Positions 2,874 through 36,094 of a stretch of 64,000 nucleotides of DNA are shown piece after piece. Within the stretch, counting starts at the first letter, position 1. Every line of letters starts with the position of its first letter. The notes under the pieces are model-generated. The model saw nothing but the letters and a program-made list of their open reading frames with translations, was not told where the DNA came from and searched no databases. The position numbers and the translations under genes are program-made. The stretch comes from Pomacea canaliculata (Eukaryota > Mollusca > Gastropoda > Architaenioglossa > Ampullariidae), in assembly GCF_003073045.1 (NCBI RefSeq), contig NC_037594.1:31298737-31362736 (forward strand), written 5' to 3'.

Positions 2874-4792
2874 ATGCAAGCGTTGGTCTTTATTGTCGTT
2901 AGCTTGTGTGGCTTTCACATCTCGGATGGCCAGAGCGCCGAGGATGTCCAGCTAATCCACAAGATGCTGGACAACAACACCATCAGTCCCTACGTTCGGC
3001 CACAAAAGAATGTTTCAAGACCCACGGCTCTTAACATCTCATTCCACTTGGTCGCCATCGTCGACTTTAACGCCGCCTCCCACAGACTGACCAGCAGCGC
3101 CCTGCTGACTGTCGCCTGGCAGGACGACTACCTCACCTGGGAGCCCGCTGCTTACGGCGGCATCACACGCATCTTGCCGGATCCCACTCAGCTGTGGCGG
3201 CCTCGGCTGACAATTCGAAATACGTTGACGGACATGAAGGTCCTTGACCACAGCTACATGGTGGCCAGGTACGATGGGATGATGAAGTGGTTACCCATCG
3301 AAACGTTTGAAACGTTTTGTCACGTGGACGTGACTTACTTCCCCTTTGAACTCCAGAAATGCAGGTGGGAGATGTTCCTTTGGGCAGAGGATGAGAGTGT
3401 TGATCTCAATCCTGTCCAATCAGGAGTCGTTTTGGACTCTTACGTGGGTGATGGAGAGTGGAAGGTGACGTCCACTGCGGTCAGGAGGGTGACCTCTCAC
3501 CTCGATGACGCCCCCTTCTCTGTTCTTGTTTACGAGGTCACACTCCGAAGACGACCGGCACTCGTGGTGATGACGATCGTGTTGCCACTCTTCATTTTGG
3601 CTGGCTTGAATGTTTTTGTCTTTATAATTCCTCATGAGTCAGGTAAGCTTCAATGTTGATAAATGCTGAAATTGTTCTGTATTTTGTGCAATTTTCTTGA
3701 TTTTTCGTTTGCATCCCTGACATAAAGTGAAAGAAAACGTAAACTTCAAACCATAAATGTGAGTTCTTCATATTTTTAGCTAATAGACATTTCGTCTTAC
3801 ACAATACATATATAATTATATATATATATCATGTAAAGATATGTCATTGAAATGATAAGTGACTGGGTTTTAACGTGTTTTTCTTATTTAGACATGTACA
3901 AATAGACAAACCATATAGAACAATTAATGATAGTGATTTATAAAAACACTTTTCCAAAACAATTTTCGCAGAGTGCTTCATAAGTAAAACAAATTATGAA
4001 CAGACCAGTCCCTCCCACCTGTCCCCCTCCTACAAAAAAACAAAACAAACAAAACAAAACAAAACAAAATACCCATGCACACATGTACTCATACAACAGA
4101 TGCACCCATGAATATAGACACAAGCTACTCATGTATACGGTCTGGACCTAGCAGGGTGAAGTCATTGAATTTGAAAAACAAACTTAAATCATCTAGAGAT
4201 GGTTTCTTTATGAGTGAGCGAACATTAGCTAACTGTTTAAGTGGCAGTGATATACAAATGTGAGATCAGCTAATGCAATATTGTAAAAAAATTAGAAATA
4301 ATTAAAAGGTAAAGGCTTATCAGGCAATTGTGAATAACAGTGATACATCTTGTGACAGGAGCCCGGCTGTCGTTCGCCACGACTAGTTTGCTGTCGTATG
4401 GAATCTTCCTGGCCTCCGTCGTGAATTTGCTGCCAGGGTCAGTGAAGACCCTGTCCATCCTCGTCATCGGCATGAGTGTTTTTCTCATCCTGTCCGCCAT
4501 CTACTCCCTTATCAGCGTCGTCTTCATGCGGCTCTGTTGTCGCGAGGATGCTCGGCGGGTACAGGAGAAACTTCAGGCCGTCACCCGACGGTTGGAGCGT
4601 CTGGTCCATGTGACAGTCTCTGACCTCACAGCTACTCAGAAACCTCAGCCAGGCCAGGCCCGGACAGGGACTGATGACAGGATGACATGGAAACGAGCTG
4701 TGCGCTCTCTAGATGCGCTCTTATTCATTTTCTTCTTTGTATTAGTCTTATCGTCCATCGCCATTTTGTGGACTTTAGTCGTCATTCACTGA
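2874..4792 (+). CDS. nAChR-like Cys-loop channel subunit, gene 1 (subfamily A), intact, GAR pore motif
   Basis: Two exons, 2874-3642 and 4359-4792, with a GT-AG phase-1 intron of 716 bp (donor gtaagc, acceptor gtgacag), encode 400 residues. Residues 1-20 are a signal peptide ending DGQ before SAEDV. The extracellular domain has a Cys-loop C149-C163 with 13 residues between, loop D W82 and loop B W170. TM1 is about 228-252, TM2 258-280, TM3 288-312, then a short cytoplasmic loop of about 55 residues, the amphipathic helix MTWKRAVRSLDALLF and TM4 379-399. The domain order and WRP motif place it in the nicotinic receptor family, so a plasma-membrane ion-channel subunit is expected. Loop A has Arg115 where ACh-binding subunits have Tyr, and loop C lacks the vicinal cysteines, so a classical alpha subunit is unlikely. 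The inner pore mouth reads GAR instead of the cationic GEK/GER. The ATG at 2874 gives a good signal peptide. The ligand is unknown. Confidence 0.9.
4033..4070. repeat. (AAAAC)n simple repeat in gene 1 intron
   Basis: Short A-rich pentamer-like repeat (aaaac/aaac units) inside the single intron of gene 1. It has no evident role and is about 290 bp from the acceptor. Confidence 0.8.
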
Positions 4793-4797
4793 ATAAC

Positions 4798-4823
4798 GAT
4801 GATGGATGATGGATGATGGATGA

Positions 4824-4874
<51 letters not shown>
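4798..4874. repeat. (GAT)n / (GGATGAT)n microsatellite
   Basis: Trinucleotide GAT repeat with interspersed GGAT units beginning just after the gene 1 stop codon (TGA 4790-4792), so it probably lies in the 3' UTR. The poly-Asp open frame over it is an artefact of the repeat. Confidence 0.9.
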
Positions 4875-5107
4875 CCCTTTCTAGAAAGTTAGTACATGTT
4901 ATTTTTGTTTCTCCTTCACTTCTTTTCATCCTTCACTCACACACATTTAACTCACTATTTATTTATCTATGTATGTTGTCACTCAAATTTTGTAATCGAT
5001 TTTTTTTTAACCCACATCCCATCGTCCTACAGTTCTGAAGATTCAACAGTTACTCACTTCCAGTAACATGGAACATCAAATCATTTTCAGCAGTTTACAA
5101 TTAGTAT

Positions 5108-5113
5108 AATAAA
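5108..5113 (+). promoter_or_regulatory. candidate poly(A) signal of gene 1
   Basis: AATAAA about 315 bp after the gene 1 stop codon. A second AATAAA at 5220-5225 precedes a genomic A-run, so the true 3' end cannot be decided from sequence alone. Confidence 0.35.
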
Positions 5114-5142
5114 TTTTTCAATTTTATTTTAAGAACTTTTAG

Positions 5143-5268
5143 TCTTAACTAGGGGAGATAGATAACTGCTGGGAAAACTATTAAACTGTAAATTATCTCC
5201 CCTAATTCGGCACCTAATGGAATAAAGTCACAAAGTAAAGCAAAAAAAAAAAAAAAAAAAAAAAAAAG
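5143..5268 (+). repeat. retroposed-looking 3' end: inverted repeat, AATAAA and a 27-A tract
   Basis: An imperfect inverted repeat (aggggagata at about 5151-5160 and tatctcccct near 5195-5205) is followed by AATAAA and, some 16 bases later, an uninterrupted run of 27 A at 5242-5268. A poly(A) signal followed at mRNA-like spacing by an encoded A-tract is what the 3' end of a retroposed transcript leaves behind. I found no clear target-site duplication, so a plain A-microsatellite downstream of the gene 1 poly(A) site is the alternative. Confidence 0.4.
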
Positions 5269-5845
5269 CTGTAATAAAATTCAAACACGCAATATTCCTT
5301 GCCTGAAATGATTGGATTAAAAGATACCCGAAACAAAAATCCCGATACAACAAATACCTAACCCTTTAGAGACATAAAATAACTCTAGCATGCAGTGTTT
5401 ACTGTTAAATTCCGCGCGTCTCACAGTCCACAGCTCAGAAAATACACGGGCACCAAAGTCTCTCAAAATGTTTGTGCCTTTCTCGTGATGTTTGCTGTCG
5501 TGTGCTGATTCTGTCGGACACAGAAAACAGACGAAGACACTGATTGCTAGGGTTGACCCCACGCACTGACCCCGTCATGTATAAATAGAATGCAGCGCGT
5601 GTCAGACACCCGGATGCTAAAGTCGCAACCGTCACTTTGTGACGACACTCTCACTCTAACTCTAACTCACTAAAATGAGATATTAAAACATTTCCTTCTA
5701 CATGAGAAGACAGATGGTGAAACCGCAACGCCAAGAGAAAGAAGAAGCAAAAGCTTCAGGAGGAACATCGTCGGAGACTGAAGGCGAGAAGGGTTTACGA
5801 TTATAAGAGCGCTGTGTTGAAAAGACTAAAAACTTTAAAATAAAA
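5269..5845. other. non-coding stretch between A-tract and LINE relic
   Basis: Two overlapping minus-strand open frames (5317-5562, 5435-5635) have no recognisable similarity and no splice context. Nothing else stands out. Confidence 0.4.
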
Positions 5846-6310
5846 TTAGTAAAATAAATTTTTCAAATACTTGTATTTCAATATTTTAAAGTGTGTTTTT
5901 TTCAAACAATGTTTACTTACATATCTTCTGCTGTGGACTAACATTTCTGTGACCTTTCGAGAGAAGAAGCGAACAATAAGTGTCTGTAGTTTAGGCCCAG
6001 TTTCACCTTTATTACTCCTACTCATTTTTTTTATAAACCTAGTCTGTAAACCCTTAAATATCTTCAGACTGATCTGGTCAAGCTCAAGTTTAACATTAAG
6101 GATTTTTAGGACATTTGTTTGGCACGTGTCCTGGGTTTCTCTGTCAGTCTCAGGCAACCTCAAAGATCCTCAAGCTATTTCCCTGAAATATTGGTCGAGA
6201 TCGTTACATCGGTTCTGAGTTCTTCTCGCTTGTATCTTAGTTTCCTCGACAACAGGCCTCAGCTCTTGCTTGAAGCCTTTCTAGAGGAATTTTCCAGAGC
6301 CTCCATTGTC
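5846..6310 (-). mobile_element. non-LTR retrotransposon ORF1-like remnant
   Basis: Read on the minus strand, about 6300 to 5846, the translation resembles the coiled-coil and RRM portion of L1/CR1-type ORF1 proteins. A glutamine/arginine-rich helical stretch (ARRTQNRCNDLDQ) is followed by LRLPETDRET, NVLKILNVKLELDQIS, KGETGPKLQTLIVRFFSRK and VHSRRYVSK. Family counterparts are the N-x-L-R-(I/F)-x-G-(I/V)-P-E, V-x-x-(I/L)-L-x-x-(K/L)-L and P-R-x-(I/V)-(I/V)-V-(R/K)-F motifs. Stop codons interrupt the N-terminal part and no endonuclease or RT follows, so this is a dead 5' fragment. Clade assignment is open. Confidence 0.5.
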
Positions 6311-7146: not shown

Positions 7147-8655
7147 ATGCAGGCATTGGTTCTGATAGTCCTTAGTTGTCTGGATTTCTGTATCGGGTAG
7201 CCAGAGCGCCGAGGATGTGTCGAGAATCCACGCGGAGCTGGAGAACAGCATCATCAGTCCATATATTCGTCCTGCGAAGAATTTTTCAAGACCCTTAATC
7301 GTTAACATCTCATTCCACTTGGTCGCCATCGTGGACTTTAACGCAGCCTCCCACAGACTGACCAGCAGCGCCCTGCTGACTGTCACGTGGCAGGACGACT
7401 ACCTCACCTGGGAGCCCGCTGCTTACGGCGGCATCACACGCATCTTGCCGGATCCCACTAAGCTGTGGCGGCCGCGGCTGACCATTCGGAATACGTTGAC
7501 GGACATGAAAGTCATCGGCCAGAACTACATGGTTGCCAGGCATGATGGGACGGTGAAGTGGTTTCCCGCGGAAATGTTTGAAACGTTTTGTCATGGCGAC
7601 GTGAAGTACTTTCCCTATGACCATCATACCTGCGACTTGCAGATGTTCATCTGGGCGGAGGGCGAGGGTCCCATCGAACTTCAACCGGTCAAATCAGAGA
7701 TCGATTTTGATTCCTATGTCGGTAATGGAGAATGGAAAGTGTCCTCCACTGCGGTCAGGAGGGTGACCTATCACCTGCATGACGACCCCATTTCTGTTGT
7801 TGTTTACGAGGTCACACTCCGGAGACGACCGGCGCTGGTGGTGATGACGATCGTGTTGCCAGTCTTCATCTTGGCTGGCCTCAACATCTTTGTCTTTCTC
7901 ATTCCTTACGAATCAGGTACGTTCAAATGCTCAGAGTTGTTACTGAGTGCGGTGGTGTTTACCTCCATCGTCAGAATAGTTATCCCTGCTTATAGTGTGT
8001 ATCCTTATTTTAATATGAGAATATCCTTATCTTTATAATCTCACGCCGATTCAGCAGCTGTAACAAACAGAAACAGGGGAATGCAGTTGAAGGACAGTAT
8101 TACCGTTAATATTCGAACCCAAGACCACCAATCCTTAGTTTGGGGATGATGTTTACTTGTTCCTTAGTCAAAGTGAGGGTTCCAAAGTGTATTCTTATCT
8201 GCAGGAGAGCGGCTATCGTTCGCTGTCACAATTCTGTTGTCATACGGAGTCTTCATGGCCTCCGTGGTGAGTTTGCTGCCAGGGTCTGTGAAGACCATGT
8301 CCATCCTCATCATCGACATGGGAATTCTTCTCATCTGTCCGCCCTCTACGCCCTCATCAGCGCCTTCTTCATGCGACTCTTTGCTCGCGATGACAGTCGC
8401 CAGGTCCCCAAGACTCTCGAGACCCTGGCCAGGAGCCTGGAGCGTCTGCTGCGTCTGGAAACCCCGAACCCTAGAGAGGTCAGGGAGTCTCCATCATGTG
8501 AGATACAAACAACGATTCACGAGGTCGATAAGATGACATGGAAACGGTTTGTTCGTTCGCTGGATGTGTTCTTGTTCTTTTTCTTTTTTGTACTGGTTGT
8601 ACTGTCCGTTGTTGTTTTGTGGGCTGTCGTCCTCTTTCGTGAGAAGAAAGTTTAG
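7147..8655 (+). CDS. nAChR-like Cys-loop channel subunit, gene 2 (subfamily A), two frame breaks
   Basis: Closest paralogue of gene 1. Exon 1 is 7147-7916 and exon 2 is 8205-8655, with a 288-bp GT-AG phase-1 intron (donor gtacgt, acceptor tctgcag). The ATG at 7147 starts a signal peptide matching gene 1, but that frame meets TAG at 7198-7200. The mature protein resumes at QSAEDVSRIH (from 7202) in another frame, 2 bases short against gene 1. The rest of exon 1 is clean: Cys-loop CHGDVKYFPYDHHTC, loop B tryptophan (FIWAEG) and TM1. Exon 2 has GERLSF, TM2, then a missing base near 8334-8335 in TM3, where gene 1 has atcctgtcc. After it the frame gives the RDD loop, MTWKRFVRSLD and TM4 to TAG 8653-8655. 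It lacks the loop C Cys pair. It could be a pseudogene, or a functional gene with assembly indels. An acceptor-like tatcgggtag just before the mature N-terminus would also allow an upstream signal-peptide exon. Confidence 0.8.
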
Positions 8656-8696
8656 CCTCATGATCACTCTGGCATCACACCTTGTGTTTAACAGGG

Positions 8697-8702
8697 AATA
8701 AA
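8697..8702 (+). promoter_or_regulatory. candidate poly(A) signal of gene 2
   Basis: AATAAA 42 bases after the gene 2 stop codon, followed within 20-50 bases by a GT-rich stretch (gtgcgtgcatgcgcgcgcgtgtgg). This is the usual arrangement for cleavage and polyadenylation. Confidence 0.55.
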
Positions 8703-11805: not shown

Positions 11806-13529
11806 ATGCTAGGAAGCTTAACGATGTTGCTGGTTGAAGCAGTTTTCTCACAAAGCGCTGAAGATGTAGCTCGGGTCCACTCAGACCTGCTCACCAACCA
11901 GTTCCCCAAAGTTCGTCCCGAGAAGGACTTGTCCCAGGTGACAGTCGTCAACGTGTCGTTTCACCTGATCTCAGTGAACGATCTGGACTCACCTTCGCAA
12001 AAACTGTCAACCAACGGGTGGATCAAAGCTTCGTGGAGAAAACATGTACCTGGAGTGGGACCCCGCAAACTACAGCGGAGTGGGGCGAATATTCCCTGAC
12101 ACCGACAAGGTGTGGCTGCCTCGTCTGACTGTCCTCAACAGCCTTAATGAGTTGAAGCCTGTCGGGACAAGCTACAGCTTCATTATAGTCACATCCAACG
12201 GACTAACTACATGGTACCCTGCGGAAGTATTTGAAACCTTCTGTGAAATAAATGTAAAATATTTTCCATTTGATATCCAAACGTGCTTCTTCACCTTCTT
12301 CAACTGGGGAGAAGACATCACCGAGGTGGACTTTCAGGTGACAGAGAACTCCGTCAATCTGACCACTTACCATGACAACGGTGAATGGGAGCTGCTCAGC
12401 ACGGGGGTATACAGACAGACACACACTTTCGACGACAAGTTGTACCCGTTAATTGTCGTGGAGATGACTTTGAAACGTCGACCCATTATTTTGATAATGA
12501 CCGTTATCTTCCCCATCTCAGTTCTTTCCTTCCTCAACGTTTTCGTCTTTTTGATACCGTTGGAATCAGGTAATGTTTTTCTATTTTACTATCACTTGGT
12601 ATATTAGCGCTGCAAGAATGTTTGTCTTACAGTACTTACCGTGTTCAAAACCATATTTTCGTCTTTTTTTCTAAACAGAAGCCTATCACAGAAGTACAAT
12701 TAATTATTGTCGCCATGTTTATGAAATGATAACAACTGTGCACACAACACACCGACTGACACACCCAAACACACATACGAATTGAGAAAAAAATCCACAC
12801 ACACACACGCGTGCTCATGGATAGTGGATAAACCCTTTTCTGATATTACAGTGCTTGCTTTTTTTTCTAACACTTTCACAATCTTTGCCATTTTGGTAAA
12901 TTTGTAAAGAATTCCAATTAATCAGGTAAGTTTGAAAAATATGCCATTGATTAACCTGCTGTAAGTCAGTGCTATGCCATGTTTTACAGGAGAGCGTCTG
13001 TCATTCTCTATGAGCGCCTTCCTGTCCTACGCCATCTTTTTTGACTTCATCCTTGGCTCTCTGCCTTCTTCCGGTGACGAGGTCTCCCTGTCTTTGATCA
13101 TCATTTCCGCTCAGCTTTTTCTGTCTTCGGTGTACGTGCTCGTCGGCATCCTGACCTCGGCCCTGGTTCACCGGGATGATGCCACTAAGCCCTGTGCCCG
13201 CCATCACGAAGACTGTGGTCATGTGGCTGGAGGTCCTTCTGTGTCTGAAGCCGACTTCTCGACGGTTTGCGGTCCTCGGGAAGAGGAATGTCGTCGGCGT
13301 GTCTGAGATATCCCAAGTTCACGGGTCAAAGGTAGCCAAAGATTCCATTCCTCGCACGGTGTACGGAGGGCAAGATAACCGTGTTGGGGAGGCGCCGACA
13401 GTTATCTCCCAGGAAAGTATGACGTGGCTTAGAGTGTGTCAGGCTGTGGACCGTCTTTGTTTTGCTTTCTTCTTCACCGGGTTGTGTGCAATGTATACTG
13501 GGTTTTTGTTTATCATGAAAGTTACATGA
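11806..13529 (+). CDS. nAChR-like Cys-loop channel subunit, gene 3 (subfamily B), two frame breaks
   Basis: Exon 1 is 11806-12569 and exon 2 is 12990-13529, with a 420-bp GT-AG phase-1 intron. I chose the ATG at 11806 because it yields MLGSLTMLLVEAVFSQ before SAEDV. The ATG matching gene 4's start lies further upstream but is out of frame here. One extra base near 12039-12046 (tcgtggagaaaacatg against gene 4 tcgtggaaaaatacg) shifts the frame after the loop D region. The second frame carries WDPANYSGV, the Cys-loop CEINVKYFPFDIQTC, loop B tryptophan (FNWGED) and TM1. In exon 2, GERLSF opens TM2. An extra C in the run at 13190-13192 (aagccctg) breaks the cytoplasmic loop, after which KTVVMWLEVLLCLKP, an amphipathic helix (MTWLRVCQAVDRLCF) and TM4 follow. 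Loop C cysteines are absent. The gene is well preserved apart from the two indels. Confidence 0.8.
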
Positions 13530-13673
13530 TTAAATCTGAAGTTAAATAGTTGCTTCCCTTGAGTGGAAATTAATACATTTTAGTGAACATTACTTCTTGC
13601 TGAAACGATATTGTAATTTGCATGCAGATGCGTTAGCTGATTGTACACAACCTACAAAATGTTTAGGGCTCGA

Positions 13674-16276: not shown

Positions 16277-17830
16277 ATGGATACCGTGCATCTAGCAAGT
16301 CTGACAATGTTGCTGGTGAAAGCAGTTTTCTCCCAAAGTGCTGAAGATGTAGCTCGGGTCCACTCAGACCTGCTCACCAACCAGTTCCCTAAAGTTCGTC
16401 CCGAGAAGGACTTGTCCCAGGTGACAGTCGTCAACATGTCGTTTCACCTGATCTCAGTGAACGGTCTGGACACAGCTTCGCAAAAACTGTCAACCAACGG
16501 GTGGATCAAAGTGTCGTGGAAAAATACGTACCTGGAGTGGGACCCCGCAAACTACAGTGGAGTTTGGCGAATATTCCCAGAACCAGACAAGGTGTGGCTG
16601 CCTCGTCTGACTGTCATCAACAGCCTCAATGAGTTGAAGCCCATCGGGACAAGCTACAGCTTCATCATGGTCACATCTGATGGAATAACTTCATGGTACC
16701 CTGCAGAAGTATTTGAAACCTTCTGTGCAATTAATGTTAAACAATTTCCGTTTGATTTTCAAACGTGTAATTTCGCTATTTTCAACTGGGGAGAAAGCAA
16801 AATAGAGGTGGATCTTCAGGTGACTAATGATTCCGTGGATCTGAGCACTTACTTCAACAATAGTCAATGGGAGATGACGAACACGCGGGTCTTCAAAGAA
16901 TTCATGAAGGTGGACGGCGAATCGCATCCGGTAGTTACCGTGGAGATCACATTGAAGCGTCTGAATGTTCTGTTGGTCCTCACCGCTGTCCTGCCCATCG
17001 ATGTGCTTTCATTGATCAATGTCTTCGTCTTCCTCATTCCTCCTCAGTCAGGTACGTAGCTTCTGACTCCTGCTTCAAATTAAATTTGATATTGCAAAAG
17101 CAGTTCAGGATTTTGTCAAAATGTTTTCAGCTGGAAAAATACTTACTGCTAAGTTTGTTCTAAAGAGTACTCTTATGTCTAAGGTGAGTCCATCACATCT
17201 TTGCTGTACAGAAATAATTTTGTAACATGTGAAAATAAAAGAATACCTGTAGTAGCTTGTTTTTAACTATGAGAAAAACTATTCTGAACAAGAATGATAT
17301 GTTTTACAGAAGAGCGTCTGTCGTTTTCCATGAGCGCCTTTCTCTCCTATGGAGTGTTCTTCAGCTTCCTGCTCGACTCCTTGCCTTCTTCCGGAGGAGA
17401 AGTTCCCCTGGCTTTGCTCCTAACTACCGTGCTGCTCTTTCTTTCTGCTGCCTGCATCCTTCTGTGCATCTTGACCTCGATCCTCGTTCACCGTGATGAT
17501 GTCACTCGTCCTGTTCCTGTCTTCACCAAGAATGTGGTCCTGTGGCTGGAGGTTGTCCTCCTCATGAAGAGGAAACCTTCGCGACTTCAACATGTCAACA
17601 AGATAAATGTCGTCGGCGTCGCTGTGGAAGAAGTCACTGAAGATTCCATTTCCCAAGCGGTGTATGCAAGAGAAGATAACCATGCTCGGCAGGAGCCGGT
17701 ACTTCCGGTGACCTCCCAGCAGAGCGTCACGTGGCTTAGAGTATGTCTCGCTCTGGACCGTCTGTTCTTCACGACCTTCTTTGCCGTACTGATAGTCATG
17801 AATGGTGTTTTCTTTTTCATAACTATTTAG
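16277..17830 (+). CDS. nAChR-like Cys-loop channel subunit, gene 4 (subfamily B), intact, EER pore motif
   Basis: Two exons, 16277-17051 and 17310-17830, with a 258-bp GT-AG phase-1 intron (donor gtacgt, acceptor ttttacag), encode 431 residues without interruption. The signal peptide is 1-20, cut before SAEDV. The extracellular domain has loop D W81, loop A I114 in place of the ACh-contacting Tyr, a C150-C164 Cys-loop and loop B W171, but no vicinal cysteines in loop C. TM1 is about 230-255. The codon split by the intron joins as GAA, so the inner pore mouth reads EER: Glu at -2' as well as -1'. Position 20' is Asp, so three acidic ring positions predict cation permeability. The cytoplasmic loop is about 100 residues, followed by MTWLRVCLALDRLFF (here VTWLRV) and TM4. 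With gene 1 it is the best candidate for a working channel subunit in the array. Confidence 0.92.
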
Positions 17831-23266: not shown

Positions 23267-23274
23267 TGACGTCA
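23267..23274 (+). promoter_or_regulatory. CRE palindrome overlapping gene 5 start codon
   Basis: Perfect TGACGTCA whose last base is the A of the gene 5 ATG. A second perfect copy lies at 23320-23327 inside the signal-peptide codons, preceded by CACG to form CACGTGACGTCA. Both are conserved in gene 6. These match the CREB/ATF site, but use as a regulatory element is inferred. Confidence 0.4.
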
Positions 23275-24193
23275 TGAGAGTACTGATATTCACTGCCGCT
23301 GTCTTCGCTCAGCTCCACGTGACGTCATGTCAAAGTGCAGTCAACGTCACGAGGGTCCACGAGCACGTGTACAACGTCATCACCCCGTACACAAGACCCG
23401 TCAAAAATTACTCCACCATCACGAACGTTCGGGTGCTTTTCCACCTGATGGCCATCAACGACTTCGACACGGCCTCGCAGAAGCTGACTAGCACCGGGTG
23501 GATGCAGGTGCAGTGGCAGAACGAGTACCTGGCGTGGGACCCGGCAGCCTTTGGCGGAGTCATTAACATCTTCCCTGATCCTACTCAGGTGTGGCGGCCT
23601 CGTCTGACTCTACGGAACACCATGAAGGACCTGAAGGCCATCGGCGAGGAGTACATCGTCATCATGGCGAGGTACGATGGGTTCATGGAATGGTACCCGG
23701 CGGAGCAGTTCGAAACCTTCTGTTACGTGGACGTCACGTACTTTCCTTTTGACATACAAACGTGCACCTGGCAGTTGTTCATCTGGGCAGAAGACATGGG
23801 TCAATTGACCTCCTGCAGCTGTGGCCTACCATTGACCTCAGCTTCTACTCTGGAAATGGTGAGTGGGAGATGATCTCAACTCAAGCGACAAAGAGGAACT
23901 GGACCCTCGACGGCGCCCTCTACCCTGAGCTCGTGTACAAGATGACACTGAAGAGGCGACCGTCACTTCTGGTGCTGACTGTCCTCATGCCAGTCCTGCT
24001 TCTGGCTTTCATCAATGTCTTCGTCTTCAGTATTCCTTCTGAGTCAGGTAACCATAGCAACCAAGTTTGGTGTGAATATGTCTGTATGCAGTGATTGCAG
24101 AGACAGAGCGTGTGTGTGTGTGTGTGTATTAGAGGAAGATAAATAAAAGCGATATTAAATAGCATATTAAATAAAACCTTTAATCAAACGATT

Positions 24194-24249
<56 letters not shown>

Positions 24250-25383
24250 ATCTGCAATTTGAGGTATGTGAGTTAGGATGAAAAACTATGCTTATAATGG
24301 ATCAGGTATATTATACCTTATTGAGCGGTAATTAATACACAAGCTGAGAGCTTCCAGCAAGCTTACATCTACAAAAATAGGAATTATAAAACCTTTTCCA
24401 AGAGGTAATTAATGTACATTTCAAACTGGATCGTGTCTAGTAGCGGTTTTTTTTTAGCCATTGTTTACAACGAATACGATCCGCTCGCTATATGAAAAAG
24501 TTTGAATAAGTCTGCACAGAGGAAAGGAAGCAGTGGAAGTTCTTAAGTTTGCTCCCCTTGTCTGTTGTCAGTCTATTCCTTTTTACAAATGTTTTAAGGA
24601 CAGGCTGTTGTTCTATATTAAAAAAATGAATTAGTTTATTGACCTTGACATAACTGACAAAGAGCCGTTATTTCACCACACACACACACTTTATGACACT
24701 TTCCAAACTCTTTTTCTCAACTTTTGCCTTTTCCTTCACGAACAACACAGGAAGCGATCATTGTCAATCTCAGCTCCATGTGGACGTGTTCATTTAGTAT
24801 TGTAGGAATTATGTCTGCGCTCAGTACAGGATCCAAAGTGTCTTCATGTGATTAATAAGCTGTGTCTGTGTTGACAGGAGAGCGGCTGTCGTACGCCATC
24901 ACAACGCTGCTGTCCTTCGGGGTCTTCATGAGCTTCATCCTGTCGTCGATGCCATCGTCAGCGGAGACCGTCTCAATCATGGTCATCGACATGAGCGCCC
25001 TGCTCATCCTCTCTGCCGTCTACGTCCTCCTCTGCATCTTCACCCTCCGCCTGTTCCACCGCGACGACGACAAGCACCCGGTGCCCAAGGCGGTGCAGAC
25101 CTTCATCGTGTCGCTGGAGGTCCTCCTGTGCCTGGAGCCGCCCAACACCAAAGTCGATCCTGTCATCCAGGTGATGCCCGTGTCCGACCAGGACCACCAG
25201 AGGCCACGAATCTGTGACACCATCAAGAAGAAGCAGTTGTCCCGGAAGCTGGCCATCACCAACCCCAACGAGATGACGTGGCGCCGGGTGAGCCGGACAC
25301 TGGACAAGTTCTTCTTCCGTCTTTCCTTACTGATCGTCCTCGGGTCCACCTTCGTTGTGTTCGTCTTGATCAGCAAGAGCTAG
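23274..25383 (+). CDS. nAChR-like Cys-loop channel subunit, gene 5 (subfamily C), one frame break
   Basis: Exon 1 is 23274-24047 and exon 2 is 24878-25383, with an 830-bp GT-AG phase-1 intron. The signal peptide MRVLIFTAAVFAQLHVTSC leads into QSAVNVTRVHEH. The extracellular domain has both WxxxxxW tryptophans of the loop D region, WRPRL with Arg in place of the loop A Tyr, the Cys-loop CYVDVTYFPFDIQTC and loop B tryptophan (FIWAED). Around 23800-23804 one base appears missing, and the frame changes inside loop F just after EDMG. It then continues as IDLSFYSGNGEW, loop C without a Cys pair, and TM1. Exon 2 is clean: GERLSY at the pore entrance, Leu at 9', Ser at 20', TM3, a cytoplasmic loop starting RLFHRDDDKHPVP, MTWRRVSRTLDKFFF and TM4. 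A single indel in otherwise strong sequence makes an assembly error or polymorphism as likely as a pseudogene. Confidence 0.85.
24109..24247. repeat. (GT)n microsatellites in gene 5 intron
   Basis: Two GT runs, about 24109-24127 and 24197-24247, separated by AT-rich sequence, early in the intron. The longer run of about 50 bases is likely length-polymorphic. Confidence 0.9.
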
Positions 25384-26320
25384 GCACCGGATGTTCACCT
25401 TGTCAAATCCTTGCCTGACTGATCAAAGCACGTGTAGCATGAAGCTTGAAAAATAACTTTCTTGGACCTGCAAGGTTTAGTGTCTAGTACAGTCATAGCT
25501 TATAGTCTTATTATCTTTACATACATCGATTGGACCTTTTTGCGAACATGACTATTTGGTGTTAGTCATGTTGTCTATACCAGTAGACTATATATTAGCT
25601 ATTTACAGTTCATGTGTGTTCTCCTCATCAGTTAGTAGAATACTTTTTCCTGAATCATAAACACTTGCACAGGAAGGTACAAAAATCAAGAAATGGAAAA
25701 ACGTTTTAAATGCAGTGAATATATGTGACAATGTTTGCTTTTGATGATTATTGTTGTTGTTGTTGTTATTATTATTAGTATTAGTAGTAGTATCATCATT
25801 ATTGTTGTTGATAATGTTATTATTGTGTCAGTAAATTAAGTTTCGTACATTTCGTGAGTTTTTACGAAGAATCGCTGTTCAATAATTGTGATCACGGGTC
25901 ATCCTTACGATGTGCAATAATAGACAAAAGATATTCACTCTTCACACTAGTTTGATGGTGGTACTGAGCTGTAGTGACTGCAACTATGCTGATGGCATTC
26001 ATCTTCTCACAATAATAACACAACTCTTTCTTTTGAGATGATGATGATTATTTTCTGCGTTTTTATATTTTTGTCAACATATTTTAGCTAAGCTTTGTTG
26101 GTGGGGTAAAGTACTATATAAGTTAACTTTATTATTATTTATTATTATTAGGTTTTCTTGACTAGATATTTCTGATGCTGGCAATAAAAAATAAAAACAA
26201 ATTGCAGACTGTGTCACAGTTTCACGTGTACTCACTGTATGTACATTCACTCATTTCATCCTGTAGCTGGTGCGGGAGGTACACGTCGTAGGGGGTACAT
26301 GATGATGATGGTGATGATGA
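25384..26320. other. 3' flank of gene 5
   Basis: Non-coding. Short ATT/GTT trinucleotide runs near 25745-25830 and 26140. No poly(A) hexamer close to the stop codon. A GATGATG run leads into the minisatellite. Confidence 0.45.
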
Positions 26321-26821
26321 TGAGCCTCACTATGACACAGCTGACATGTGTGAGCCTCAATATGACAGCTGACATGTGTGAGCCTCACTATGGCACAGCT
26401 GACATGTGTGAGCCTCACTATGGCACAGCTGACATGTGTGAGCCTCAATATGACACAGCTGACATGTGTGAGCCTCACTATGGCACAGCTGACATGTGTG
26501 AGCCTCACTATGGCACAGCTGACATGTGTGAGCCTCAATATGACAGCTGACATGTGTGAGCCTCACTATGGCACAGCTGACATGTGTGAGCCTCACTATG
26601 GCACAGCTGACATGTGTGAGCCTCACTATGACACAGCTGACATGTGTGAGCATCACTATGACACAGCTGACATGTGTGAGCCTCACTATGACACAGCTGA
26701 CATGTGTGAGCATCACTATGACACAGTTGACATGTGTGAGCCTCAATATGACAGCTGACATGTGTGAGCATCAATATGACACAGCTGACATGTGTGAGCC
26801 TCACTATGACACAGCTGACAC
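26321..26821. repeat. 30-bp minisatellite, 16 copies, two E-boxes per unit
   Basis: Sixteen tandem units centred on cagctgacatgtgtgagcc plus tcactatgacac-type spacers. Most units are 30 bp with occasional 28-bp variants. Each unit carries CAGCTG and CATGTG, both E-box (CANNTG) sequences, so about 32 such sites lie within 500 bp. Unit-length variants of 28 bp break every reading frame, so the long open frames on both strands are repeat artefacts and not genes. It lies between genes 5 and 6. Spacerless identical-unit structure excludes a CRISPR. Confidence 0.95.
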
Positions 26822-27928
26822 AAGCAGTCAGCACAGCAAATATCATCTGACACGTGTATCACAAGGCAAGAATCGGGCGCTGACTGCATTTAATGGAGGA
26901 AACTGCGTTCCATCATCTGCAGAAACCTTTAATATGTTTAATTACTTCTTTATTTCTGTAGTATGACAAATGTCGGCCGACCTTTCCTTTGTTCTCGCAG
27001 GCAAAGAGTAGTGGAATGCACTATGTTGCTCACATGAGTGTTCACAGTTGAGGTCAGAAGGTCGTTACTCACTTGTCTGTCTCTGTCCACTCGGAGGGTG
27101 GGATCTAGTTCCTACCCCTCGGCTGCCTATCCTCCATAACGTTTTTTGGGGGTTAATTATCCAATGAACAGCTAGGTCAGGGAGGGAAAGTATCATGTTT
27201 CACACGACTGTCAAACCATCTTCTACGAATTTGAAAGACGTGGCTTCGTACACAAGCACATGACCACTGCAACTATATCCCCAACACAAAGTCATTGTAA
27301 GTTAATTAATTTCAAGCACACCTTAGATAAAAAAAAGATCTCTAGCAGACGACATTCTTTCAGCAACATTCATTCACATTCTTAATAAAAAAAAATTACG
27401 GTCTATATATTTTTTCTGCTTTGTTTATATTTTTATATATTTTTTTATTTATGTTTATTTTCATTTTTCAAAGCTAAATTAAAGTGTTTGTTTAGGTTTC
27501 CGGAATACAGACAGTTCTAGTAGAGTGCTCATGCTTTAATGATAATTAATTAATTACAATAATTATCCACTTCGTGAATTAAAAAGATCGTTAGCCTGAT
27601 CAATGGGCTGACAGTGGACGTGATTGCAGGCTACAAGAAATTGATTGGCGCGAGCGACCATTAGAAACGCGCGGTCCACCCTGATGCTATGATTAAACCT
27701 CGTACTGCCACCCGCAGACCTCGGCTCAGTGCGACAACTGGTCCTCCTCTGGGTACATCGTTTGTCAGCTACTCAACGAAGACGGGTACCATGTTGAGGT
27801 CATTCCAAACAGGAATGTAAATACTCTGTGACACGTGGTGTAAGAGCATCGTTCTTTGAGAAAATTTAGAGATTAATTATCCATCAGTTTAAATCGCTAG
27901 ACTGTGAAAGCAAGAAGGATCCAGCTTC
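26822..27928. other. 5' flank of gene 6
   Basis: Intergenic, strongly AT-rich at 27340-27600. Homology with the gene 5 upstream region is visible only in the last 20-25 bases before the start codon. No gene seen. Confidence 0.4.
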
Positions 27929-27936
27929 TGACGTCA
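27929..27936 (+). promoter_or_regulatory. CRE palindrome overlapping gene 6 start codon
   Basis: Perfect TGACGTCA ending on the A of the ATG, exactly as in gene 5, with a second copy at 27982-27989. Conservation may simply reflect the recent duplication and the amino acids encoded. Confidence 0.35.
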
Positions 27937-30167
27937 TGAGAGTACTGATATTCACTGCCGCTCTCCTCGCTCAGCTCCACGTGACGTCATGTCAAAGTGC
28001 GGTCAACGTCACGAGGGTCCACGAGCACGTGTACAACGTCATCACCCCGTACACAAGACCCGTCAAAAATTTCTCCACGACCACGAACGTCCAGGTGCTC
28101 TTCTACCTGATGGCCATCAACGACTTCGACACGGCCTCGCAGAAGCTGACCAGCACCGGGTGGATGCTGGTGCAGTGGCAGAACGAGTACCTGACGTGGG
28201 ACCCCGCAGCCTTTGGCGGCGTCCAAACCATCTTCCCTGATCCTACTCAGGTGTGGCGGCCTCGCCTGGCCATACAGAACACCATGAAGGACCTGAAGGC
28301 CATCGGGGAGGACTACGTCGTCATCATGGCCGTCTACAACGGGATAATGCAGTGGTTCCCGGCGGAGCAGTTCGAAACCTTCTGCTACGTGGACGTCACG
28401 TACTTTCCTTTTCGACACACAAACGTGCACCTGGAAGTTGTTCATCTGGGCAGAAGACATTAGTGAAATCAACCTCAGCAATGGCATCAGAAATCGACCT
28501 CAGCTTCTACTCTGGAAATGGCGCGTGGAAGATGCTCTCTACCCGAGCCTTCAGGACAAACTTGATTCTCAACGGTGCAAACTTTCCTATTCTTGTCTAT
28601 GAGGTGACACTGAAGAGGCGACCATCACTTCTGGTTTTGACTGTCCTCATGCCAGTCCTGCTTCTGGCTTTCATCAATGTCTTCGTCTTCAGTATTCCTT
28701 CTGAGTCAGGTAACCATAGGAACCAGTAGGGTGAAAGTCTGTGTTCAGTGCGATGTCAGAGTGATAACGTGTGTCGTCCACGAGATAGAGTGCGAAAGTG
28801 CAATAGAGAAAGAGAGACAGAAGCAATAAATATGTTTGTGTAAAACAAACATTTTATAAAAACGTTGACATAATTGTGTAGTATGTCAGTAAATACACTT
28901 TCTGGAACTGGATGTCCATTTTGTTTCTAGTATAAGATCCACGATATTCTGAGCTAAGAACCGGTGAATTAAAAATCGCCTTCCGAGCTTTTAGAAAGTT
29001 CGACTTCAAGTGAACATGTTTGCATCTAGTTAATGTAAAAATTATTTTTTCATTAGGAATAATTGAAGTGTTTTCAAACTTTATGATTTTTGCAAACTGC
29101 GTCCTCCCTGCAAATTGTATAAAACTTGTAACAATTTGCTTGATACGCATGATGGCTTTGTGGACACAGACTGTGTTCGTCGTTTACCACAAGCTATAGT
29201 TTTCTGTACAAAGGTTGTACTGCCTGGGTATTCTTACCACTTTTGTATATCGAAGCTTTATGTAGATTTGAAGTTTGCTGTCCTTATCTGTAAGCAGCCG
29301 ATTAATGTTTTCCGAATCGCTGTTTGTCATTGTAATGATTCCTAAAAATTATTTCCATTAATTATAGTGTTGGAAATTATTACCATTTTAACAAAATGAT
29401 TAGAATTTCGGAACATACACCAATGCGTATTAATTGTAACCTGTTTCTTCTTTTTTCTGTCAGACTCGCCCCTGCACATACATCATACAAAGATAGAGAA
29501 AGAGATATATGCGCACACCCGAACACTCTTAAGTATTTTAGTACAAAAAGCAACTCACTTGCCTTCAACAAATTGAAAGCTTTAAAGGGTTTTACTTGTC
29601 ACCTTTAAGTCATAGAAATTCGTTTCTTGCCCAGTCTGTAGTAAGTGTCTTTGTTGACAGGAGAGCGGCTGTCGTACGCCATCACAACGCTGCTGTCCGT
29701 TCGGGGTCTTCATGAGCTTCATCCTGTCGTCGATGCCTTCGTCAACTGAGACTGTCTCCATCATGGTCATCGACATGAGCGTCCTGCTCATCCTGTCTGC
29801 CTTCTACGTCCTCCTCTGCATCTTCACCCTCCGCCTGTTCCACCGCGACGACGACAAGCACCCGGTGCCCAAGGCGGTCCAGACCTTCATTGTGTCGCTG
29901 GAGGTCCTCCTGTGTCTGGAGCCGCCCAGCACCAAAGTCGATCCTGTCATCCAGGTGATGCCCGTGTCCGACCAGGACCACCAGCAGCCACGAATCTTTG
30001 ACACCATCAAGAAGAAGCAGCTGTCCCGGAAGCTGGCCATCACCAACCCCAACGAGATGACGTGGCGCCGAGTGAGCCGGACACTGGACAAGTTCTTCTT
30101 CCGTCTGTCCTTACTGATCGTCCTCGGGTCCACCTTCGTTGTGTTCGCCTTGATCAGCAGAAGCTAA
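27936..30167 (+). CDS. nAChR-like Cys-loop channel subunit, gene 6 (subfamily C), three frame breaks
   Basis: Near-twin of gene 5. Exon 1 is 27936-28709 and exon 2 is 29661-30167, with a 951-bp GT-AG phase-1 intron whose first bases (gtaaccata) match gene 5. The signal peptide and N-terminal half are almost identical to gene 5. An extra C at about 28413 breaks the Cys-loop codons (tttccttttCgac). A second shift lies at about 28480-28492 in loop F, after which EIDLSFYSGNGAW, loop C (no Cys pair) and TM1 are in frame. In exon 2 an extra G near 29699 (tccgttcgg against tccttcgg) disrupts TM2 after GERLSYAITTLLS. Downstream TM3, the HRDDDKHPVP loop, MTWRRVSRTLDKFFF and TM4 are almost identical to gene 5. 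The stop codon is TAA. Three breaks make this the strongest pseudogene candidate of the array, yet no substitution stops are present. Confidence 0.8.

Positions 30168-31821: not shown

Positions 31822-31822
<1 letters not shown>
30168..31822. other. intergenic stretch after gene 6
   Basis: ATTAAA at 30230-30235 is a possible poly(A) signal of gene 6. A weak tRNA-like piece (box A-like gcatgcgctctcc, box B-like gtgaatccaattctc) lies near 30349-30400 and may be an old SINE head. A (GTT)n run is at 30550-30571. The rest shows nothing recognisable. Confidence 0.4.
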
Positions 31823-31891
<69 letters not shown>

Positions 31892-31921
31892 GGACAGACA
31901 GACAGACAGACAGACAGACAG
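31823..31921. repeat. (AGAC)n microsatellite
   Basis: About 24 tandem agac units with one interruption (aggacag near 31891). The open frames on both strands over it are artefacts. Confidence 0.97.
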
Positions 31922-33953
31922 TGATAAAGTGGAAAGAGAGTGGGGAGAAACAAAATGCATGTACTTCTGCGTTCCTATGGTTTATGTTTAAGGGAGCGTG
32001 AGAACCTAATACCTAAATAGTAATTAGGTTATCACACTTACAGTTATCCCATAATGCACCAGAAAATTCCATTGGTGCCAACTGACTGGCGACCCACGCA
32101 CAGGTACTCTCACACAGAGCAGAGCATGGAGCGAGGCTGCGGACCACAGTTCAAACAAGACAACATCGCTGTTGATGACTTGCAGTTCAATTAGTTTTCG
32201 TGGAGTAGTTAGAACACGATTACTACATTTTGCTGTGTCAATAGTCACCAGGCACCAACCTCATTCCATGGCCGGACATGACAGAGCTGTTTTCACTGCC
32301 TCTTGCGAAATGCAATGACTGAGCGCTTCCATTGTGGCTGGAACTACCTTTGTTAGGTACCCACAACAATTATTCACAGTAATTATTCAGTTATTACTGA
32401 CAGTAATCATTCAAAATAATTATTAATTTATTATTTACAGTATTGATTGACACGAACGTTTACATAGTACCGTCTGAGGTAGTTATTATCGTAATTCATT
32501 TCTCTCGGTCGGAACTGTGATAATCTGACGTTTGTCGAGAAACATTGTAGTGGGACACCACATCGTGTAAATGGGAACAGTGGCAACTATTGATGCTAAT
32601 CTCAGTGTTTCACGGGGAAACATTAGGTGAGAGACAGGTGTTTGTTGTCTCTGTTCACTCTAACAATTGTCTTCCTGCCAATAGTGTGACCTGATTATAA
32701 GCAAGGCTCCTATACTACTGAATGGTAGTCATGGTTACAGATGACAATGTTGTGTACATCACCGGTATCTTTCTAATACTGTCAATAACACAGAAAGAAG
32801 AAACGACGATTTTTCCACCAAATTTCGCAAAACATCGCTGCTTATTTCATTTTGTGATTATTCCAGCCTCACCTCAAACTGCTCAAGGTGTTACACACAC
32901 ACAGGAAAGAGAGCTACAAAAATATATCTTTGAAAAAACATTACTTTGATGAAAGTTGATTCCATTATTTTATTATAAAAATTATAAAACTGTACATAAA
33001 AATAGGCGGGGGTAGCCTTAGGGATGTGCAAACTATTCACCTGCACAAGGCCGCCAAATCCCAGGGGCCGCCACGCCATTATATATATATACATCAAATA
33101 TAAAACAAAAAAAGAAAATAACGACACGGGACGGGAATGTGGTCAAAACATTGTGTTTCTTGTTAATTAGTTCGCTGTACTTACTGATGTTGCTGGAGTC
33201 GGAGCAGTAAGATGTGTGTAATATTATAATATCTGCATAATGAGAACATCGCGGGCCGCCACTGGTTTAATTAACATTGGCGAGTGAACGGCCCCCAATT
33301 CGTTCTCTGCCCAGGGGTAATAAAGAAACGACAGACTTTTCAAACTGTAATAATGTAAAATACCCAACTTATTGTGTCAAGCATGTTCGGATATCGCATC
33401 TATTCATATATTTATATTCGTTTATCTCATCATCATATGAGAGTACATGGCGGACTGACCCACATGCTGTGAACATTCAGTCGTCGTCAAAACAAACCGA
33501 TGGCCAGCGGTATCAGCTCTGTTTGCTGGAAGCTTCGATCGACGGGTACCCGTGTGTACCCCGCACATGAACAATAAGCAAGCAACTCTTGGCAACAATG
33601 CATCAGCTCGCGCGGTCAGCGGAAGCCATAGCAACTGCTGACTGCGCATGCGTCCGGTTCTTCACCCCATCCCTGCCAATCCCAGTACATTATTTTTTAC
33701 ACACCCTTTCATCAATTAAAGAGGAGCAGAGGGCTTAGCAACAACATTCGGTTGCACTCGTCTAAGCGTTTGGTGATTGCGTTCTCGTGTACATGACGGA
33801 TGGCAGCTTGGTACGCTGCTTGTCACGTGCAGCAACAAATAACAGTTCAAAGGAAAACTAGCTACTTAAGAAAAACAAGAAAAGAAAAGTGACTTCATTG
33901 TTGAATCATCAGTGATTTTTCTCAATAGCCCTTTTTACTTCTTGCTTCATAAT
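31922..33953. other. intergenic stretch and 5' flank of gene 7
   Basis: No gene recognised. An NRF1-like TGCGCATGCG lies at 33643-33652, about 300 bases upstream of the gene 7 ATG, a position comparable with the one before gene 4. GC-rich patches with ggccgcc strings at 33045-33075 and 33252-33262 could belong to an unidentified repeat. Confidence 0.35.
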
Positions 33954-36094
33954 ATGTGGAAATTGCTGTTTTTTCTGATAAGCGCGGCCTCTGTCAAGAT
34001 GGCGTCAGGTCAAAGTGCCATCGACGTCACGCAAGTCCACAATCACATCTACAACGTCATCAGTCCCTATGCGCGGCCCTCGACAAACCTTCCCTACCAA
34101 CGACGGTCTACGTGTCCTTCTACCTCATGTCCATCAACGAGTTCAACACGCAGCACAGAAGCTGACCAGCACCGCCTGGCTGATGGTCACGTGGCATGAC
34201 GACTACCTCACCTGGGACCCCAAGTCCTTTGGTGGCGTTGAAAGGATCTTTGCGGATCCAGCTCAGGTGTGGCGGCCTCGACTGGCCATTCGAAACACGA
34301 TGATGGACATACGGCAGCTCGGCAATGACTACGTGGTCTTGCAGGTGGATCATCACGGGAGGGTGACGTGGTACCCGGCCGAACGTTTCGAGACTTACTG
34401 CCAGGTCATCGTGACCTACTTTCCACTAGACGTACAGACGTGCACGTGGGATATCGACAGCTGGGACGCAGACGGCGTTGACCTGCAGGCAATAAAACTT
34501 GACATTGACCACAGTTTCTATGGAAACAACGGTGCGTGGGAGCTGGTGTCTTCAAACGTGAGTAAGGGCAACAACAAACTCGTCTTCCAGGTCACCCTCA
34601 AGCGGCGGCCGGGTCTCTTGATCCTGAACCTCATTCTTCCCGTCATGCTGCTGGGTGTTGTCAACATCTTCGTCTTTACCGTGCCGCCAGAGTCAGGTTT
34701 GTTTGTTTACATTAATAAGTACCTACAAGGACTTACATCACCTGAACAGCCGGCGACCTCCCGAGACCAATTCTTAGCCTCCTGCAAAGTTGTAGGATGT
34801 CAGGTCCCGACGAGTGTTGTAACAATATGACGAGAATAGACCGATCTTAAATTCGTAATTTCAGCAAAATAGTTGACATACTATATGCGTAGTTCCTATT
34901 TTACTTCTCATTTTTAAGCAAAAGTCGTTTACCTCCAGTCTCATTTCCTTAAAGCCAATAAACCGAAAACAAAACAAACCATAAACTTGAAATTTTACCT
35001 CCGTCAACTCGAGCGCTTTTATCGTCTTCTTTCATCTTTCTGCTTATAATAAAACTAGAAACCCATTCACTATGAGTTCATTCCAGAAATTAAATGTAAT
35101 TTTTTCCCGAGGAGTGTGCTTTCTTCAGCATAAATTGATCTATGCATCAATTTTATATGATAAGTTCTTAAATCTCCACAAGCAGGTAGACATCACTTTA
35201 ATTGATGTCGTGTGTTTAGAAGACTTTGATTACTGATATGCAAGTTTAAGTAAATCAATTATCAATCATCAAGCTACAAACTCGGTAAAATACTTGAAAC
35301 AATTTTTTTTTCAAGTATCTCACTGGCACGACCTAGTCATTTTATTCTCGCATAGAAACACGGATATTTTATTGCTGTATGTGTAACAGTATTTATGTAT
35401 TAATATTATATTCATATGTATTTACCTTAGATGTATTTATCAGCATATATTTTTGTATCTGATAAGTGCAAGTAGACACTAACCGGGGATTGATGAGAGT
35501 TTTCAGTAATACACTCACATACCTCACTCTGTGTCAATATCGACAATTGCACAATGAAAATTGTAACTCATACTTCTGTTGGCAGAGGAAAAGTTATCAT
35601 TTGCTATCACGACACTGCTGTCGTTCGGGGTGTTCTTAAGCTACATCCTGGATTTGCTGCCGTCGTCAGCGGAGACCATGTCCACCATGACCATCGCCAT
35701 GAACGGCCAGTTCATTCTATCCTCCCTCTTTGTCCTTCTCACCATCCTGGTCCTCCGCTTGCACCTCCGCGACGACAACAAGCACCCGGTGCCCAAGTCT
35801 CTTCAGTCCATCATCGTCAAATTGGAGTTCATTTTTCGTCTGGGGCCTCCTTCTACCAAAGTAGTGCCTGTGGTGGAGGTGTCGACCCTTCCTGGCCAGG
35901 AGGACGAGCAGACGACAACCAAGGAAGTAGAAAGGTTCATGAAGAAGGCGGCTCGCAAAATGGTCTTCGACAACCACGAGCTCATGACATGGAAACGGGT
36001 GAGCTGCTCCCTGGACAAAATCCTCTTCAGGTTTTTCCTCTTAGCCGTTGCGATTTCCTCCACCGCGGCGTGGATCTACGTCTACCTCGGGTGA
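33954..36094 (+). CDS. nAChR-like Cys-loop channel subunit, gene 7 (subfamily C), two frame breaks, EEK pore motif
   Basis: Exon 1 is 33954-34696 and exon 2 is 35586-36094, with an 889-bp GT-AG phase-1 intron (donor gtttgt, weaker than in the paralogues). The ATG at 33954 gives a signal peptide MWKLLFFLISAASVKMASG before QSAIDVTQVHNH. Two single-base deletions relative to genes 5 and 6 disturb the frame, at about 34090-34097 (after STNL) and 34148-34152 (acgcagcacag against acggcctcgcag). Between and after them the protein is well kept: VYVSFYLMSINEFNT, the loop D tryptophans, WRPRLAIRN, Cys-loop CQVIVTYFPLDVQTC, loop B tryptophan (DSWDAD) and TM1. Exon 2 is clean. The split codon reads GAG, so the pore entrance is EEK, with Asp at 20'. 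TM3, the RDDNKHPVP loop, MTWKRVSCSLDKILF and TM4 follow to TGA. It lacks loop C cysteines. It is the most diverged member of subfamily C. Confidence 0.83.

Follow-up and report, generated by a model that had tools for sequence, protein, structure and literature searches.

Tandem, intron-poor expansions of nicotinic acetylcholine receptor (nAChR) genes are known in molluscs (PMC6896357). Here we analyse seven tandem nAChR-like genes (g1 to g7) of the apple snail Pomacea canaliculata, which lie in a 64,000-nucleotide stretch of DNA (the window; C5:31298737-31362736) and in which neighbouring copies are alike along some parts of the gene and diverged along others. Published systems are cited for those of their passages that bear on the comparison. 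The expanded mollusc genes, like those of the window, form tandem arrays with 0-2 introns and lineage-specific paralogues. The main text of that study makes no mention of 'positive selection', 'ligand-binding' or 'Pomacea'; gene conversion is absent from the passages of it that were covered, in which the term itself was not searched.

Octopus chemotactile receptors (CRs) are reported, in a review, to carry positive selection at sites in the pocket (PMC11526382). Like the predicted products of the window, cephalopod CRs are expanded, nAChR-derived and without acetylcholine binding, and it is the pocket that has diverged in CRs. They differ in that the CR pocket shows positive selection, whereas the window pairs show no difference in the ratio of nonsilent to silent substitution rates (dN/dS). 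No chain named as a CR was among the 60 best of 275, or the 60 best of 212, sequence matches to solved structures. The primate L/M opsin genes offer a second parallel, since conversion there is opposed by selection (gibbon study, PMC3213168). As proposed for the window, tandem paralogues convert and selection acts against homogenising the segment that sets specificity. The arrangement is inverted, however: introns are homogenised and exons kept apart in the opsins, whereas exons are homogenised and introns are not in the window. The annelid receptor Alpo4 (PMC10338036) is, like the window genes, a lophotrochozoan Cys-loop receptor that lacks the CysCys pair of loop C and keeps the Trp of loop B. 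It retains aromatic residues in loops A, C and D, whereas the window genes have neither the loop-A Tyr nor a Tyr at position 188. In titles and abstract openings from an incomplete literature we found no account of gene conversion in nAChR or Cys-loop genes, and likewise none pairing positive selection with mollusc receptors on this point.

We propose that patchy gene conversion, confined to exons, probably explains the mosaic seen in the window, jointly with selection that may guard loop C of g5 and g6. As read from sequence, the window would be a new case of an already known process, gene conversion among tandem paralogues.

Divergence and homogenisation along the exons

Identities were computed with codons at frame breaks masked, and contact loops were placed by alignment to the alpha-7 nAChR. 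g3 (11806-13529) and g4 (16277-17830) share 113 of 127 residues (89%) from the mature N-terminus to the Cys-loop and 42 of 81 (52%) from there to the first transmembrane segment (TM1). A sequence-only reading made before this analysis had seen this drop by eye, and it is real. It is not specific to the loops, since identities of 51-63% continue through the TM regions and exon 2 (TM1 16/28, TM2-3 36/57, intracellular loop 40/79, TM4 18/34). g5 (23274-25383) and g6 (27936-30167) share 112 of 130 residues (86%) to the Cys-loop, 51 of 71 (72%) from the Cys-loop to TM1, all 28 in TM1 and 159 of 167 in exon 2 (TM2-3 53/56, intracellular loop 72/75, TM4 34/36). For g1 (2874-4792) and g2 (7147-8655) the values are 104/129 (81%) and 52/80 (65%), followed by TM1 24/28, TM2-3 40/56 and TM4 22/36, with the intracellular loop (14/51) the most diverged part. 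This heterogeneity along the gene exceeds chance in all three pairs, for silent and nonsilent changes (change-point permutation p 0.001-0.007).

The sequence-only reading had held that change is focused on the ligand-contact loops. Such a focus is found in g5/g6 (loops E, F and C), exists in g3/g4 only within a larger divergent block and fails in g1/g2. The last pair was said to differ mainly in the Cys-loop and loop F; divergence in its loops does not exceed that of the remaining ligand-binding domain (LBD; Fisher test, nonsilent, p = 0.89). Apart from the surroundings of loops F and C, and also of E, g5 and g6 are indeed near-identical, but the loop-F strings that had been quoted for them compare different reading frames. 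The g6 string SEINLSNGIR is out of frame with the IDLSFY that follows it, and the quoted contrast is invalid because of frame breaks at 23802-23803 in g5 and at 28410-28413 and within 28465-28489 in g6. Comparison of loops from raw translations was rejected on the same ground, that frame breaks shift the frame inside loop F. Loop F does differ between g5 and g6 at the level of DNA, with 57% identity over 23813-23842.

Silent divergence (dS) also jumps within exon 1. Across the Cys-loop it rises from 0.158 to 0.880 in g3/g4 (Fisher test on silent change, p = 3.4e-6; dN/dS 0.32 before and 0.38 after), from 0.242 to 0.545 in g1/g2 (p = 0.023; dN/dS 0.50 and 0.36) and from 0.182 to 0.446 in g5/g6 (p = 0.029; dN/dS 0.41 and 0.39). 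The change-point of g3/g4 falls at alignment codon 151 for silent change (permutation p = 0.003) and at codon 155 for nonsilent change (p = 0.001). The homogenised N-terminal tract of g3 (11851-12247; 16334-16729 in g4), with a dS of 0.16 to g4, ends at the Cys-loop. g1 has a homogenised core at 3075-3200 (7346-7471 in g2), where the silent p-distance to g2 is 0.03 against 0.39 elsewhere (change-point permutation p = 0.007) and around which 30-nucleotide blocks are 90-100% identical over 3052-3231.

Outside the exons this similarity is lost. Neither the introns nor the 2 kb upstream and 2 kb downstream gave any blastn match at E<=0.01 in g1/g2 and g5/g6; in g3/g4 the introns and 2-kb flanks gave a single match, of 43 nucleotides, downstream. 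The g5 intron (24048-24877) and its g6 counterpart (28710-29660) align only over about 16 nucleotides at each end. Exon blocks of 30 nucleotides in g5/g6 are mostly 83-100% identical outside loops E, F and C, where the lowest blocks (57-73%) are found. The first block past each exon edge has 80%, 63%, 60% and, after the stop codon, 43% identity, and second blocks have 20-37% where one was compared. Compared base by base, similarity runs about 16 nucleotides beyond both splice sites and about 30 nucleotides above the ATG, and stops at the stop codon. Non-aligning introns beside near-identical exons argue for conversion between old duplicates, not recent duplication. The longest identical runs are longer than in permuted data in all three pairs (p 0.0005, 0.0005, 0.0015); the lowest p among the 18 other gene pairs was 0.0495. 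Conversion homogenising the other parts of the genes had been one of two explanations offered in the sequence-only reading, and it is upheld by the silent jumps within an exon, the non-aligning introns and flanks and the long identical runs.

Other routes to near-identical exons fit less well. Tandem misassembly of alleles is unlikely because introns and flanks do not align, and a single crossover chimera of g3/g4 is less likely because the 5' flank does not align either. Homogenisation mediated by complementary DNA (cDNA) is less likely because the g5/g6 similarity enters both intron ends and ceases at the stop codon; for similarity that enters both intron ends, a DNA template fits better than cDNA.

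We propose that the duplications are old, such that introns and flanks no longer align. Conversion between neighbours would act on exons, since homology survives nowhere else, and would overwrite parts of the coding sequence. Each pair would have its own patches. In g3/g4 these would cover the N-terminal half of exon 1; in g1/g2, a short core and, it appears, the stretch from loop C to TM1; and in g5/g6, most of the gene apart from the surroundings of the binding loops. Stretches that escaped conversion would still carry their old differences, silent and amino-acid alike, and contact loops would therefore look hypervariable.

The loop-C island of g5 and g6

Loop C of g5 contains an island of 63 bp (23876-23938; 21 codons, alignment codons 202-224), whose counterpart in g6 spans 28538-28600 (21 codons). 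The silent p-distance between g5 and g6 is 0.714 inside the island and 0.124 in the remaining mature gene (change-point permutation p = 0.001), and the island has the highest silent divergence among 376 sliding 21-codon windows. At 0.71, it falls within the range that separates g5 from its other paralogues (0.47-0.96); elsewhere the g5-g6 silent distance is 0.16 (N-terminal LBD) or 0.10 (exon 2).

An island of high silent divergence would likewise result if the loop-C segment of g5 or g6 had been imported by conversion from a third paralogue. We consider this improbable. In a DNA search of the assembled genome (440,159,624 bases in 24 contigs) each island matched only itself, and no second near-identical copy turned up; the search did not recover the 59%-identical partner, and a distant donor would escape it as well. 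Identity to other window genes is 35-60%.

The island is flanked on both sides by homogenised sequence, and we propose that copies in which loop C had been overwritten would be removed by selection, since loop C is proposed to set ligand preference. Alternatively, the island would be a mechanical leftover, in which mismatch in an already diverged loop C blocked strand exchange and no selection on ligand binding was required. The identity of only 59% between the two islands fits such a barrier, as do the unconverted segments, which differ among the three pairs. In none of the pairs do silent islands fall on loops more often than chance allows (12 circular-shift tests, p 0.065-0.64), which fits the barrier too and counts against guarding selection. 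A barrier leaves unexplained why a contact loop diverged first, with homogenised sequence either side, and we regard it as possible but somewhat doubtful. That selection, rather than the mismatch barrier, spared loop C is plausible from the sequence pattern and is the reading to which we lean, with chances that we put at about even.

Silent and amino-acid change in the contact loops

Diversifying selection on the binding loops was the other explanation in the sequence-only reading. Loops A-F do hold a higher density of nonsilent differences than the remaining LBD in g3/g4 (p = 8e-5) and g5/g6 (p = 2.6e-4), with circular-shift p of 0.029 and 0.010, respectively. Within the diverged block of g3/g4, loops F and C have a dN/dS of 0.67 against 0.24 in the rest (p = 0.031 for nonsilent change), and a pattern of the kind that such selection predicts exists in another cluster of the genome, on C12. 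That it drove the amino-acid change in the contact loops of the window pairs is nevertheless very unlikely, for the following reasons: (i) silent divergence also rises; (ii) g1/g2 has no loop excess; (iii) dN/dS in loops A-F is 0.32, 0.49 and 0.47 in the three pairs and, with the divergence scale left free, does not differ from the rest (p 0.27, 0.44, 0.36); (iv) nonsilent to silent counts do not differ between loops and non-loops (Fisher p 0.42, 0.22, 0.16).

Codon models let the divergence scale and dN/dS vary separately. When dN/dS is left free, a difference in scale between the Cys-loop-TM1 segment and the N-terminal LBD has p = 6.4e-6 in g3/g4, 0.026 in g1/g2 and 0.056 in g5/g6. When scale is left free, a difference in dN/dS has p 0.25-0.79 in all 10 contrasts (loops, loops F and C, Cys-loop-TM1). 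Silent divergence thus rises with nonsilent divergence and no dN/dS difference is needed once scale is free, so that diversifying selection is unsupported in the window pairs. The sequence-only reading had named equal silent and nonsilent divergence along the gene, with no excess in the loops, as the outcome that would speak against it. The two do rise together, yet nonsilent change sits on the loops in g3/g4 and g5/g6.

Several results weigh against conversion with a guarded loop C. One is the circular-shift result for silent islands given above, although by the same kind of test nonsilent change does sit on loops in two pairs, g3/g4 and g5/g6 (p 0.010-0.060 across tests), and does not in g1/g2 (0.41-0.44). 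Only the g5/g6 island is confined to a loop: loop C of g1/g2 is undiverged (proportion of silent differences, pS, 0.18) and g3/g4 is diverged throughout after the Cys-loop. For loops A-F against the rest, with dN/dS free, the difference in scale has p of only 0.10 (g1/g2), 0.063 (g3/g4) and 0.047 (g5/g6), and the scale model is weakly preferred over the dN/dS model by log-likelihood (-1218.5 versus -1219.9 in g3/g4, -1084.9 versus -1086.4 in g5/g6). The loop partition alone is not decisive, as a dN/dS-only model fits nearly as well; the segment and island contrasts are decisive. The nonsilent excess of loops F and C in the g3/g4 block, given above, belongs here too, and some loop-specific selection may have acted within that block. 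In the diverged Cys-loop-TM1 block of g5/g6, loops F and C again hold more nonsilent change (p = 0.047; dN/dS 0.36 versus 0.38), and in the homogenised part of this pair nonsilent change is denser in loops (p = 0.012) with no difference in the nonsilent to silent ratio (p = 0.33). The bounds of the island come from a scan, for which the permutation p allows and the likelihood test does not. Sequence errors could create false differences. Lastly, conversion and selection on the island are proposed from the paralogues of a single genome.

The pattern that the sequence-only reading expected in the window is found on C12, in one pair of genes. Three nAChR-like genes (c12a, c12b and c12c) lie at C12:11901880-11918132 (L030, L031, L032). 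First-exon identity to c12c is 85% for c12a and 91% for c12b. Residues that differ between c12b and c12c number 17 of 86 in loops and 3 of 131 in the other LBD. The loops of this pair have 20 nonsilent to 4 silent differences, against 3 to 9 outside them (Fisher p = 0.001). Silent change shows no excess there (p = 0.77), and amino-acid change is concentrated in contact loops B, E, F and C, including alpha-7 positions 107, 109, 119 and 193. The remaining two pairs show a similar but nonsignificant tendency (12:3 versus 16:12, p = 0.19; 24:5 versus 20:12, p = 0.094). Taken over the trio, loops have a dN/dS of 1.86, against 0.39 for the LBD outside them (p = 0.0045, scale free; p = 0.0064 against the rest of the exon), and the loop value does not differ significantly from 1 (p 0.61, 0.41). 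Upstream DNA of the trio is about 70-72% identical and the intron side aligns only for c12b/c12c, patchily; conversion may be at work here too.

These three pairs belong to a set of five tandem pairs from outside the window, the others being one on C13 and one at 22.5 Mb on C12 (the trio lies at 11.9 Mb). The p of 0.001 for c12b/c12c survives correction for eight pairs, these five and the three of the window. The 22.5-Mb pair has no loop excess (proportion of nonsilent differences, pN, 0.03 in loops and 0.07 outside). For the C13 pair the raw values are pN 0.21 and 0.16 and pS 0.27 and 0.38 in loops and outside, respectively.

Ligand site, frame breaks and gene layout

Neur_chan_LBD scored above the cut-off in all six exon-1 pieces submitted to Pfam, and the TM region (Neur_chan_memb) did so for g5, the sole exon-2 piece submitted. 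The Cys-loop signature, two Cys separated by 13 residues with FP(F/Y/L) between, is present in all seven genes of the alignment, with one residue of the motif hidden by a frame break in g6. By sequence, alpha-7 and other nAChR subunits are the best-matching relatives of known structure. Searched against the genome, the g5 LBD recovered the window genes at 50-100% identity (except for a second g3 piece, 43%) and, beyond them, no long match above 34%; g5 exon 2 recovered only the seven window genes (eight matches). An AlphaFold model of the LBD exon of g4, built on an alignment that included five other pieces of the window, had a mean confidence score (pLDDT) of 44.6 and was set aside.

Sites were assigned by the alpha-7 residue numbers, loop limits and aromatic box (Tyr93, Trp149, Tyr188, Tyr195). 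Trp149 is kept in all seven window genes. The vicinal CysCys at the tip of loop C, Tyr93 and Tyr188 (a gap in g7) are found in none of the seven, and Tyr195 is kept in g3 and g5 only. The window genes encode Cys-loop receptor subunits that lack the marks of acetylcholine-binding nAChR alpha subunits. The ligand would be other than acetylcholine, and its role perhaps chemosensory. The C12 trio has Trp149, Tyr93 and the CysCys replaced or missing in its alignment.

More tentatively, the apple snail may possess families of non-acetylcholine Cys-loop receptors in which exon-confined conversion refreshes a common chassis and selection guards loop C. The C12 genes would arrive at the same outcome through point changes concentrated in the contact loops, and such families would be the gastropod equivalents of CRs. 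If this is true, ancient differences persist in a ligand loop of 63 bp although the genes around it are otherwise near-identical. The case separates loop variability made by selection from apparent variability where the remainder was overwritten, and signs of both are found in one snail genome, in two nAChR-like clusters without the acetylcholine signature. Were loop C protected, orthologous loops would group by gene and the remaining exon sequence by species.

Five of the seven window genes are frame-broken, which the sequence-only reading had passed over. The ten breaks (g2 two, g3 two, g5 one, g6 three, g7 two) could mean that these genes are pseudogenes, whose loops differ because constraint was lost. 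We judge this unlikely. A net shift of 1 nucleotide fits all ten breaks; once break codons are masked (nine in g6 loop F, one to three elsewhere, with the g2 signal peptide excluded) none of the seven genes has an in-frame stop; splice sites and stop codons are retained; and whole-gene dN/dS is 0.36-0.43 across the three pairs. Six intronless HSP70 genes served as a control (L025-L029; C1:13.858-13.870 Mb, 14.727 Mb and 39.326-39.333 Mb), and three of them bear a comparable signature. L025 and both copies in L029 are intact. The other three are broken, with eight breaks in total: one of 2 nucleotides in L026, and one in L027 and six in L028 of 1 nucleotide each. When masked, the three broken copies have no in-frame stop and 94-99% amino-acid identity to an intact copy. 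The published assembly is of PacBio reads with Illumina correction by Pilon, from an animal with 1-2% heterozygosity, according to the relevant passages of its description (PMC6129957), and this type of assembly also speaks against pseudogenes. The HSP70 control suggests residual assembly indels in duplicated genes. Two other nAChR-like genes beside close tandem relatives are also frame-broken, L015 (2 nucleotides) and L013 gene 2 (at least two of 1 nucleotide); the latter copy, read unmasked at L013:6647-8131, could be a pseudogene. Frame breaks are frequent in the few duplicated genes examined. Error is a better reading than five pseudogenes, and the breaks in the window genes most likely arose in assembly. 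In this reference, a frame break in a duplicated gene should not be taken at once for a pseudogene or for loop variation. As a separate observation, the two intact HSP70 genes of L029 (C1:39326300-39333300) stand in opposite orientation and encode an identical protein, possibly as a converted or very young palindrome.

All seven window genes lie on the + strand and have two exons with a single phase-1 intron at a common site (after TCA G), whose ends are GT and AG. g1 (exon 1 2874-3642, exon 2 4359-4792) is intact with 400 amino acids, has an open frame across the exon junction and matches Neur_chan_LBD at E 7.4e-32. g2 (exon 1 7147-7916, mature part in frame from 7202; exon 2 8205-8655) matches the domain at E 1.2e-35, with breaks in the signal peptide and at 8333-8334. 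The match of g3 (11806-12569 and 12990-13529) is on 12056-12568 at E 4.7e-28, with breaks at 12037-12046 and 13187-13190. g4 (16277-17051 and 17310-17830) is intact with 431 amino acids and E 4.2e-39. g5 (23274-24047 and 24878-25383) matches Neur_chan_LBD at E 1.8e-29 and Neur_chan_memb at E 9.2e-9, and its one break is in loop F. The LBD of g6 (27936-28709 and 29661-30167) was matched to PF02931 in the genome search, and its third break is at 29696-29699. g7 (33954-36094; exon 1 33954-34696, exon 2 35586-36094) is matched on 34150-34701 at E 2.6e-29 and is broken at 34089-34090 and 34148-34149. Among the listed open frames of at least 120 amino acids, positions 36100-64000 hold no convincing gene, with no further search made there. 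A 30-bp minisatellite at 26275-26840, between g5 and g6, has several open frames on both strands and is probably not coding.

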